IMG/VR virus record: IMGVR_UViG_3300032898_000155
Location: 1-22,335 of that record
DNA length: 22,335 bases
Source of the DNA: a virus
Direction: 5' to 3' (one strand)
Positions 8,509 through 11,034 of the stretch are shown in pieces. The notes below the pieces were generated by a model. It was given only the letters and a program-made list of their open reading frames with translations, was not told where the DNA came from and made no database searches. Positions within the stretch are counted from its first letter, which is position 1. Each line of letters opens with the position of its first letter. Position numbers and translations under genes: made by a program.

Positions 8509-8574
8509 CTAAAATAACAGATATAGTAGGCGACTATCCCATCTAACCAAGTAGTCATATCGTAACCATACCAT

Positions 8575-8616: not shown

Positions 8617-8691
8617 TGGGGTGTACAGAGGGATTCAAACCCTCGTCTCTAACGTTCTGGGTTATCGTGCTGATCACTGCACCATGCACAC
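8617..8691 (-). tRNA. tRNA with atypical anticodon loop (reads AGA, C33)
   Basis: All arms of a type I tRNA are present on the minus strand: acceptor 8691-8685 with 8627-8621 (7 bp, one G-U), D stem GTGC/GCAC (8682-8679/8670-8667), anticodon stem 8665-8661/8653-8649 with one A-G mismatch at its base, T arm GAGGG/CCCTC with loop TTTGAAT, and an encoded CCA (8619-8617). The loop reads CCAGAAC, which puts AGA (nominally Ser) at 34-36 but C instead of U at 33. The D arm resembles Gln/Glu tRNAs. It has its own promoter and terminator. Identity is unsure; it may be degenerate or have a non-translational role. Confidence 0.7.
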
Positions 8692-8800: not shown

Positions 8801-8831
8801 GTACATTAATGTACTTATTGCATGGTATAAT
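8801..8831 (+). promoter_or_regulatory. Extended -10 promoter with perfect GTACATTAATGTAC operator
   Basis: TGG-TATAAT (8823-8831) is a consensus extended -10 box. The perfect 14-bp palindrome GTACATTAATGTAC (8801-8814) covers the -35 position, so a bound protein would block RNA polymerase. The expected start point is G8838, which is exactly where a structured RNA begins. The same palindrome, with two changes, is in the SSB-like promoter at 2661-2674. Confidence 0.7.
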
Positions 8832-8837
8832 ACTCCT

Positions 8838-8967
8838 GTCTACATTTTTCATAAGCACGCAGGAGCTTTTTTAATTCCTAACAACAAATGGGCAGCCATT
8901 GTACTAGTTAGGAATTTCTCCTGCTTGAAAGGTGTAGACAGCCGCAATGGCTGTCCATTTTTTTATT
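8838..8967 (+). ncRNA. Structured leader or small RNA with competing terminator and pseudoknot
   Basis: Three perfect nested helices: 8838-8844/8933-8939 (7 bp), 8859-8865/8918-8924 (7 bp) and 8873-8882/8907-8916 (10 bp). The apical loop segment 8891-8902 can pair with 8944-8955 (12 bp, two G-U) as a pseudoknot. The 8944-8955 segment is also the loop and 3' arm of a terminator, 8937-8943/8949-8955, followed by CATTTTTTT. The terminator further shares 8937-8939 with the outermost helix, so the two folds exclude each other. The G-U pairs would be mismatches on the other strand, supporting plus-strand RNA. It may control the membrane protein at 8984 or act as a free RNA of about 130 nt. No known class was recognised. 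Confidence 0.75.
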
Positions 8968-8983
8968 AAACAGGGGAAAATGC

Positions 8984-9256
8984 ATGTTCGTAGATCCAGA
9001 AGGTAGCTCTAATGTAGCCCTTAATACGGAGCCTACTCAATATAAGTATGTCGCTATAGTCATAGGGCTAGCGATCATACTAATTGGACTTGGATATTGG
9101 TTTGTGTATCGTCCATATATGATTCGTCGAAAGTGCGCCGCTGTCGCTACGAATGTTGCTGACTACGGACATTCTTCCGAAATTGTTTCTCAATGGTTTG
9201 GTGAGAGTTATCAAGGAGATTATCAACTCTGTCTCAACTCCAGAGGGCTAGAGTGA
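8984..9256 (+). CDS. Small single-span membrane protein behind a structured leader
   Basis: A 90-residue protein with a polar N-terminus, one membrane helix (about residues 22-42, YVAIVIGLAIILIGLGYWFV), a basic stop-transfer stretch (RPYMIRRK) and a soluble tail with two cysteines. AGGGG lies 8 nt before the ATG, downstream of the leader's terminator, so expression would need readthrough. An earlier ATG at 8980 gives only a 9-codon frame. No family recognised; it may be an exclusion or membrane-sensing protein, which is speculation. Confidence 0.68.
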   Translation: MFVDPEGSSNVALNTEPTQYKYVAIVIGLAIILIGLGYWFVYRPYMIRRKCAAVATNVADYGHSSEIVSQWFGESYQGDYQLCLNSRGLE

Positions 9257-9295: not shown

Positions 9296-9385
9296 GGAGG
9301 AGTGGCTGAGTGGTTGAAAGCAACGACCTCTTAAGTCGTAGAACTGCGCAAGTTCCGTGGGTTCGAATCCCATCTCTCTCCGCCA
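9296..9385 (+). tRNA. Serine-type (type II) tRNA with lysine anticodon CUU
   Basis: The D arm (GCTGAGTGGTTGAAAGC), 5-bp long variable arm (9341-9345/9351-9355), T arm with TTCGAAT, G73 (9382) and encoded CCA (9383-9385) are those of bacterial tRNA-Ser. The anticodon stem ACGAC/GTCGT is perfect, and the loop CTCTTAA (9328-9334) reads CUU, the loop of tRNA-Lys(CUU). SerRS recognises the long arm and G73 rather than the anticodon, so this tRNA should be serylated. The acceptor GGAGGAG pairs with CTC-T-CTCC only with a bulged T9377. It could mis-insert Ser at AAG codons or act as a decoy for tRNA-Lys nucleases; it may also be decaying. Confidence 0.8.
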
Positions 9386-9588: not shown

Positions 9589-10613
9589 TCAGGTTGTGAG
9601 AGTAGTTTCAAGACGCCCACGTATCACTGAACTGCTATACTACCTATATGGGAAAACGACTATTCAGAGAACTGATCAGGAAAGCCTCAAGGCCTTTTCC
9701 AGAAGAACAGGACCCACAGCTACACCCCGGTAGTTATAACGGAACACGAACTCGTCAATATAAGACTGCAAATACTTCGGTGAAACAGCGTGGTACGTCC
9801 CGTCCAAAGACCGCTTCAACTGGGACCAAAACCCCTCGATAGTATTGGTATGGGCTACTCCTCGTACATACTCCAGTTTCGAGTGATTCACGGTTGTGTG
9901 CGAATAGCCCTGCTTCGGTAGTGACTTATATGCTCTCCATTCGTCAGTATAGACATGGCTGTTCTTCAGCACGTCCATGCTTATCTCCTTGAGCAGTACA
10001 CGGGCACCTGAACTCTGTACGTGCTTGGCTTTCACCATCCCGCCACGCTCCACGGTGCCGAATACAATGCTCTTGTTATCGAACTTCTGTTTCATCTTAC
10101 GACGGCCACCGATATACGTTTCATCGCTCTCTACTTCACCACTAAGCTGGAATGAGCCTTGGCCCATCAACGAGCGCACCAACCGGCACATACGCCACGC
10201 AGTCTTGTAAGTGACACCCAACTCACGCTCGATAGTCTTGGCGGCCACGCCGTTTTTGTGTACGGAGAACTGGTATATGACGTAGAACCAATCATGCAAC
10301 GGCGTGCTGGACTTACGGAAAATCGTACCAGCCAGCGGAAAGAGTTGGTAGCTGCACCACTCGCAAGCATAGCACTGCCGTCCTTTTACCCTGTAGAACT
10401 TAGCCTTGACCACCCCGCAGCTCGGGCAGCATTTCATGCGTCCGAAACGGTCTTGAAACACGGCTTCCAAACAAGCGTCGTCGTTCGGGAACTCTGCTTC
10501 AAACTGTTTCTTGGGGTATCTCATACCGAACATTCTAGCAAATATATACTTGTTAGTCAAGGAATTACTTAAGAGGTTAGATGTGTCCGTTTTAGACATA
10601 ACTGGTAACCTGA
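9589..10613. mobile_element. IS1595-family-like element (about 1025 bp), boundaries tentative
   Basis: The transposase gene is flanked by imperfect inverted ends. TCAGGTT at 9589-9595 matches AACCTGA at 10607-10613, and further in, 9603-9622 matches the complement of about 10580-10599 at 12 of 20 positions, including an A-x-ACG core. The right repeat overlaps the transposase start codon. An 8-bp target duplication was not found at these edges, so the insertion may be old, the edges may be a few bases off, or the gene may be a domesticated transposase. Confidence 0.55.
9676..10599 (-). CDS. IS1595/ISXO2-like transposase
   Basis: A 307-residue protein. An N-terminal zinc ribbon has C58/C61 (CCPSC) and C79/C82 (CEWC), followed by the family signature QLFPLAGTIFRKSSTPL. 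A helix-turn-helix-like part (KTIERELGVTYKTAWRMCR) comes next. The DDE-type core shows D159 (EVESDETYIGG), D219 (VYTDEWRAY) and NTIEGFWSQLKR with E255. Length is normal for the family and the frame is intact. The ATG lies within the putative right terminal repeat and has no Shine-Dalgarno site. Confidence 0.92.
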   Translation of the reverse strand: MSKTDTSNLLSNSLTNKYIFARMFGMRYPKKQFEAEFPNDDACLEAVFQDRFGRMKCCPSCGVVKAKFYRVKGRQCYACEWCSYQLFPLAGTIFRKSSTPLHDWFYVIYQFSVHKNGVAAKTIERELGVTYKTAWRMCRLVRSLMGQGSFQLSGEVESDETYIGGRRKMKQKFDNKSIVFGTVERGGMVKAKHVQSSGARVLLKEISMDVLKNSHVYTDEWRAYKSLPKQGYSHTTVNHSKLEYVRGVAHTNTIEGFWSQLKRSLDGTYHAVSPKYLQSYIDEFVFRYNYRGVAVGPVLLEKALRLS

Positions 10614-10848: not shown

Positions 10849-11034
10849 CTATTCAGCTGCTACTTGCTTCGTAGGGATAGTCGCCATATGCGCAAAGAGG
10901 CAAACAATGGTTATCAAATCCCATGGTCGCTGCCGGAAAGTTATGTATGCAGCTTCCAACAATTGGTTGGTAGTAATCAACCGCTGTACGAGCCTTCTAA
11001 GCCCCGCAAATTCAAAAGATGATACATCTACCAT
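10849..11034 (-). CDS. Possible small membrane-associated protein (weak)
   Basis: A 61-residue frame on the same strand as its neighbours, with a hydrophobic stretch (DLITIVCLFAHMATI). It lacks a Shine-Dalgarno site, and the terminator at 11043-11066 separates it from the genes upstream, so it would need its own promoter. A 66-residue plus-strand frame covers the same DNA and looks equally protein-like. At most one is real. Confidence 0.3.
   Translation of the reverse strand: MVDVSSFEFAGLRRLVQRLITTNQLLEAAYITFRQRPWDLITIVCLFAHMATIPTKQVAAE

Follow-up and report, generated by a model that had tools for sequence, protein, structure and literature searches.

In the fluoride riboswitch, a pseudoknot stabilised by the ligand gives read-through. 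The pseudoknotted aptamer of these (crcB) riboswitches and the terminator downstream of it fold and rearrange together (PMC11077080). The fhsA motif (WRC-63-1), an RNA candidate from Leptotrichia and environmental DNA, has also been proposed to form a pseudoknot (PMC11109978). Here we describe an RNA at positions 8838-8964 on the plus strand of an IMG/VR virus record of 22,335 bases (IMGVR_UViG_3300032898_000155; this whole stretch is hereafter the window), together with the family to which it belongs. Judged by comparison of its 78 members, this is a family of cis-acting 5′ leader RNAs of Saccharibacteria, in which a pseudoknot and an intrinsic terminator compete for one 3′ strand. We consider it probable, at roughly 70%, that such leaders choose between the two under the bias of a cellular input, with the pseudoknot as the read-through state.

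The nested part of the leader in the window (8838-8940, 103 nucleotides, nt) folds at -41.9 kcal/mol, against -18.6 ± 3.0 kcal/mol in shuffled sequences (z -7.8; 0 of 200 shuffles reached it). A first-pass annotation of the window had described three perfect nested helices starting at the predicted transcription start. The helices (P1, P2 and P3; Table 1) are there and P1 does begin at the predicted +1, but P1 includes some G.U pairs, so that they are not all perfect. The same annotation had placed a 12-bp pseudoknot at 8891-8902/8944-8955, which turns out to be one register of a longer complementarity between the apical loop and the 3′ strand, 17 bp in total (8886-8902/8944-8960); the conserved core of this is 12 bp long, with one G.U inside (8890-8901/8945-8956). 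Its terminator (8937-8943/8949-8955 plus seven T), too, is present in the sequence as described: terminator and pseudoknot both use the same 3′ strand, and the terminator also takes the GAC at the base of P1, which accounts for three bases of the outer helix. A small loop hairpin (AUGG/CCAU) that appears in the fold is not claimed here, because its letters overlap those fixed by the pseudoknot.

Relatives were sought with covariance models. The search set was 393 genomes from the order to which the Saccharibacteria genome G006 belongs. A model built from the single window sequence had full-length matches in 27 of them (E-values down to 2.7e-14), and a model from 21 sequences matched 86 of the 393. 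On a draw from the phylum, the 21-sequence model matched 20/380 genomes, 12 of which also stood in the order sample. No hit in 12 unrelated genomes went below E 0.56. When 20 order genomes from the first part of the list were searched with a better model and laxer filters, 19 were still empty and G319 had eight copies. The family is thus patchy and multi-copy, with up to eight copies per genome. The sensitivity of the search is limited, and the 22% of order genomes with a match is therefore a lower bound.

Rfam 15 matched only two transfer RNAs (tRNAs) in the window, and a search of 12 leader loci at permissive E-values of up to 10 returned only noise over the leader RNA, in keeping with the earlier impression that it belongs to no known class. 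We found no relatives of the leader RNA by BLASTN of phage records, by a DNA-pattern search of viral contigs or by way of the neighbouring 90-aa protein; in the related phage G001, a weak BLASTN match that falls within a coding region was put down to chance. In the literature searched on Saccharibacteria riboswitches and noncoding RNAs, neither the leader family nor any native class of regulatory RNA peculiar to Saccharibacteria was found described. Within the reach of these searches the family is new; its general kind is already known.

The alignment (A4) holds 78 copies with a median pairwise identity of 50%. The counts that follow are of sequences, not events, and some changes are common to related copies. 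In the nested helices 94.5% of cells are paired and two-sided changes occur at 34/35 pairs; the covariation score is 0.695, compared with 0.174 in shuffled alignments and at most 0.10 when the strands are slid. Some members have a local hairpin on the 5′ side in place of P2, as read by eye. The pseudoknot was part of no model and no fit. It is paired in 97.5% of cells, with 117 two-sided changes (0/500 shuffles), and the signal is lost on sliding by 1-3 columns. The terminator stem is paired in 93.5% of the family and has covariation of its own. The loop resembles the terminator arm and could covary accidentally for that reason, so the five pseudoknot pairs outside the terminator stem were checked separately; these are paired in 94.0% of cells, with 71 two-sided changes (0/500 shuffles). 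Compensating changes, to which the first-pass annotation had looked for the decision on the structure, are therefore abundant in the 77 homologues. On this comparative evidence the nested fold, the pseudoknot and the terminator are real and chance is excluded. The two mutually exclusive pairings are both conserved in the family, which supports the attenuator- or riboswitch-like logic read from the window alone.

The context of the copies points to action in cis. A -10 box at the right spacing, with +1 at or beside P1, is found in 77/78 copies at a match of at least 4/6 (28% at random places) and in 73/78 at a match of at least 5/6 (4% background); it is an extended -10 in 54. An open reading frame (ORF) starts within about 90 nt downstream in 76/78 copies, nearly all with a Shine-Dalgarno-like sequence, the starts being picked by a simple score. 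From the promoter at P1 and the nearby ORF start we infer a cis-acting leader. The window copy is no exception: as the first-pass annotation had it, the RNA lies between a promoter, here an extended -10, and a gene for a membrane protein (8984-9256, 90 aa), which has no family match in Pfam or PHROGs. A good -35 hexamer was not found at the window promoter. At the place expected of a -35 box (8801-8814) there is a perfect 14-bp palindrome, GTACATTAATGTAC, possibly an operator, with a one-mismatch copy at 2661-2674.

The 74 downstream proteins are diverse and include eight resolvases, four DUF4352, three DUF5067, two bPH_2 and two DUF2726 proteins, a DNA methylase and others. By simple hydropathy, a transmembrane-type hydrophobic segment is present in 47/66 distinct non-recombinase proteins versus 22/104 other ORFs in the same loci. 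The leader is thus predicted to act in cis on accessory genes, mostly those of membrane or secreted proteins. Two further ideas were dropped. A defence link as the common theme was rejected after PADLOC gave one methylase and otherwise weak candidate systems only. A leader peptide starting at the AUG of the loop was rejected because this start codon is not conserved: it is ACG, CUG, UUG or absent in other copies, with the AUG lost in L124, L125, L133, L134, L135 and L136.

A free RNA of about 130 nt had been the other possibility raised from the window, and a terminated small RNA of about 125 nt, acting mainly in trans through its conserved loop, would account for the strong terminator, the compact fold and the conservation of the loop sequence. 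The ORF starts close downstream in 76/78 copies speak against it, as do the nine copies that have no terminator. Furthermore, the loop and the 3′ strand change together, even within one genome (in G319, L163 differs from L121, L160 and L161), which points to pairing in cis. We regard a mainly trans-acting role as quite improbable.

Most likely, the pseudoknot is the ON state, and the choice between the two structures is regulated and made during transcription. Transcription would begin at or beside the first base of P1. P3, P2 and P1 would fold in this order and present the apical loop (AAAUGGGCRRCCAUUG type). The 3′ strand (CAAUGGYYGUCC) would then emerge with two mutually exclusive partners. 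Pairing with the terminator 5′ arm (GACRRCC), for which three P1 pairs are peeled off, would give an intrinsic terminator. Pairing with the apical loop would give the pseudoknot, block the terminator and let the polymerase read into the gene; the window copy would control the 90-aa membrane protein in this way. The pseudoknot would have the first chance, because the strand leaves the polymerase with CAAU in front, which falls within the loop of the terminator and can pair only with the apical loop; the pseudoknot helix, taken in isolation, is also computed to be the stronger of the two in 78/78 copies. In the window P1 (14 bp) and P2 plus P3 (17 bp) are similar in length, and a hairpin bend between them is suggested. 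With such a bend the loop would reach the foot of P1, from which the 3′ strand is about 5 nt away. The cellular input that biases the choice may be a small molecule, a protein, an RNA or the transcription rate.

If the input is a small molecule, the family would consist of true riboswitches with a pocket in the apical loop and pseudoknot (with A-rich AAA flanks and an A-rich 3′ part), and not in the internal loops. At three positions 5′ of the pseudoknot strand an unpaired A is conserved (in 72/78, 66/78 and 48/78 copies), the 3′ part of the loop is A-rich, a G.U wobble at the third pseudoknot pair is retained in 68/76 copies, and the design resembles that of the fluoride riboswitches (PMC11077080). 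Set against this, the downstream genes share no common pathway and conservation is low outside the paired or overlapping strands. This sub-case of the switch is possible, although we hold it to be somewhat doubtful.

Several points weigh against a pseudoknot that acts as a regulated antiterminator. A4 was fitted to the nested model, and the nested pair counts thus lean towards the nested helices; the pseudoknot counts do not. The computed energies, by which the pseudoknot is stronger than the terminator hairpin in 78/78 copies (median -21.7 versus -10.7 kcal/mol), refer to each helix on its own, with no terms for loops or tertiary contacts. The internal loops are variable across the family, and there is therefore no obvious ligand pocket in them. 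With a linker of about 5 nt between P1 and the 3′ strand, the pseudoknot can form only if the RNA bends sharply at its asymmetric internal loops. Lastly, nine copies keep the pseudoknot and lack the terminator arm, so that at least there the pseudoknot would have a role beyond antitermination.

Eight of these nine copies can be traced to a start codon, and all eight precede serine recombinases; the ninth (L150, minus copy) runs off its locus after a similar start. P1 begins with GUC in 66/69 copies with a terminator, and the GAC/GUC arms are kept in 67/69 of them, versus 0/9 copies beginning with GUC where the terminator is missing. The GUC of P1 is therefore fixed only where its GAC partner must also serve the terminator. 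In the eight recombinase leaders the start codon lies 7-15 nt past the RNA, compared with a median of about 30 nt in the rest. Integrative elements with a serine recombinase (L177, L180, L169, L195, L185 and L187) carry two outward-facing leaders 1-3.5 kb apart, the one before the recombinase without a terminator and the other, before another gene, with one. Separately, a third copy of the terminator 5′ arm follows 8-14 nt after the 3′ arm in roughly half of the loci (e.g., L122, L134, L156, L163, L176 and L183). This copy is complementary to the 3′ arm and encloses the U tract; the pairing energy is -10.3 kcal/mol in cis and -9.3 ± 0.24 kcal/mol in trans, a real enrichment. This third arm is absent in the window.

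The copies before recombinases bear on the reverse assignment, in which the pseudoknot itself is the OFF state: a helix ending at the U tract would terminate transcription (or block the ribosome), and the ordinary hairpin would be an additional or reserve terminator. The function of a terminator hairpin can be supplied by an oligonucleotide that is annealed upstream of the U tract. The closing pair of the pseudoknot (87/193), which adjoins the U tract, is strictly kept (GC 65, CG 9, UA 1, no mismatch), and the recombinase leaders retain the pseudoknot without the hairpin, with the start codon close behind the RNA. The U tract of these leaders is short, however (3-6 U), and elsewhere there is a full classical hairpin and a longer U tract, with covariation of its own, such as a redundant element would not need. 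We consider this assignment unlikely. A mixed scheme, in which one pseudoknot leader and one signal serve a dispersed accessory regulon with opposite read-outs, removing the terminator (ON) for cargo and membrane genes and blocking expression (OFF) for serine recombinases, is tentative and on balance rather unlikely. If true, mobility and cargo would be switched against each other.

Table 1. Features of the window that bear on the leader RNA and its host element.
Feature	Position	Strand	Evidence or remark
Leader RNA, whole	8838..8964	+	Fold z -7.8; 78-member family with covariation
P1, 14 bp	8838-8851/8926-8939	+	Family: 97.4% paired; two-sided changes at 14/14 pairs
P2, 7 bp	8859-8865/8918-8924	+	Family: 84% paired; covariation at 7/7 pairs
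P3, 10 bp	8873-8882/8907-8916	+	Family: 94.5% paired; covariation at 10/10 pairs
Apical-loop strand of pseudoknot, GGGCAGCCATTG (as RNA GGGCAGCCAUUG)	8890..8901	+	Conserved; pairs with 8945-8956
3′ strand, CAATGGCTGTCC (as RNA CAAUGGCUGUCC)	8945..8956	+	Pseudoknot partner; 8949-8955 is the terminator 3′ arm
Terminator 5′ arm, GACAGCC	8937..8943	+	Pairs with GGCUGUC 8949-8955; GAC 8937-8939 also closes P1
Terminator U7 tract	8958..8964	+	Sequence; terminator scan
Predicted promoter, extended -10, TGGTATAAT	8823..8831	+	TATAAT at 8826-8831; predicted +1 at 8838
Shine-Dalgarno-like AGGGG	8972..8976	+	Sequence; start-site scan
Predicted controlled gene, 90-aa single-pass membrane protein	8984..9256	+	ORF
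Left terminal inverted repeat (GGCGACTATCCC...CAAGTAG)	8529..8554	+	85% inverted match to 10860-10885; same ends in L029, L030, L031, L033, L117
Right terminal inverted repeat	10860..10885	-	Inverted match to 8529-8554
IS1595-family (ISXO2-like) transposase	9676..10599	-	PF12762 2.3e-40; PF12760 9e-8
tRNA-like gene, anticodon AGA	8617..8691	-	Transcribed away from leader RNA; ARAGORN; Rfam RF00005 49.9 bits
tRNA-like gene, anticodon CUU, long variable arm	9296..9381	+	ARAGORN, Rfam

The first-pass annotation took the leader for a phage RNA. The window does carry phage terminase and head-tail genes, but the leader sits in an IS1595-family transposon inserted in the phage record, and the family as a whole belongs to Saccharibacteria chromosomes and mobile elements. 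Terminal inverted repeats enclose the transposase, two tRNA-like genes, the leader RNA and the gene of the 90-aa membrane protein. By this gene order, the window copy is cargo of the transposon and outside the phage's own gene set. The closest transposases (69-73% identical) are found in a Saccharibacteria metagenome-assembled genome (L033) and in three bacterial ones (L029, L030 and L031), in all of which the element has the same GGCGACTAT-type ends. Like other IS1595-family (ISXO2-like) insertion sequences, the element has the transposase domain and inverted ends, and its relatives L029 and L030 have perfect 8-bp target duplications (CTTTTGGC and GCGCAGAA, respectively). It differs from them in its cargo and in its flanks, ATATAGTA and ATATGCGC, which agree at only 4/8 bases; the insertion is therefore old or rearranged. 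In a second such element (L117, genome G254), the ends enclose the same leader RNA together with a transposase, a 55-aa membrane protein and a tRNA-like gene. In the Saccharibacteria-type IS1595 elements (L029-L033 and L117) the transposase is accompanied on either side by varied passenger genes of about 700 bp to 1 kb, other small membrane proteins among them. Related phages are represented by two IMG/VR contigs (L003 and L002) with terminases 58-61% identical to that of the window; the L002 record also shares neighbouring structural genes, and the leader RNA was not found in it.

The presence of the leader in two IS1595-type elements and the resolvases among the downstream genes (8/74) could mean that the RNA is a part of the mobile element itself, e.g., a guide or bridge RNA or a recombination site. 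Against this, the genes behind most copies are of other kinds (membrane proteins, DUFs, a DNA methylase), no copy was found in G003-G006, the genomes with the closest transposases, and the loop matches its own 3′ strand rather than variable targets. Such a role is highly improbable.

The tRNA-like genes of the element are unusual in themselves. Read by eye, the gene at 8617-8691 has a short variable arm and C, not U, at position 33, odd for a serine tRNA. The gene at 9296-9381 has a serine-type body by eye, yet its anticodon CUU would read the lysine codon AAG; it may miscode, mimic a tRNA or be a decaying copy. One arrangement recurs in four IS1595-type elements, in which part of the tRNA-like gene has a repeat at a distance of 83-104 nt (L033:3264-3277/3347-3360, L030:3340-3352/3427-3439, L117:195-217/284-306 and window 9337-9359/9441-9463). 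The repeated part is from the anticodon arm or, in the window, the variable-arm region. The tRNA-like genes of L030 and L033 were read by eye, and ARAGORN and Rfam miss both.

Gene control in Patescibacteria is little known, and this leader family is multi-copy, patchy and linked to mobile elements and membrane proteins. The comparative support is good enough for immediate testing. An apical-loop pseudoknot that seizes the terminator 3′ arm, while the 5′ arm doubles as the closing strand of the leader, makes a clean design in which to study pseudoknot-controlled termination. Should a ligand or protein be found, it would give a handle on what the tiny Saccharibacteria epibionts sense, and the leader might serve as a native part for inducible expression, which in this field still needs development (PMC11665869).

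Among known systems, T-box and leader-peptide attenuators also place a choice between terminator and antiterminator in a 5′ leader. The present family has no T-box match in Rfam, and differs from leader-peptide attenuators in that the AUG of its loop is not conserved. With the fluoride (crcB) riboswitches it has in common a pseudoknotted 5′ leader on an intrinsic terminator platform. It differs from these in sequence and fold (no Rfam covariance-model match): its three helices are stacked, and the 12-bp pseudoknot of its apical loop takes the terminator 3′ arm directly. The family's mode of action would also resemble that suggested for the fhsA motif (PMC11109978), of which it is not a member; that motif is tied to one gene, for formate-tetrahydrofolate ligase, and occurs in other organisms. 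The pseudoknot of the fhsA motif is a proposal only, whereas that of the Saccharibacteria leaders is backed by 117 two-sided changes.
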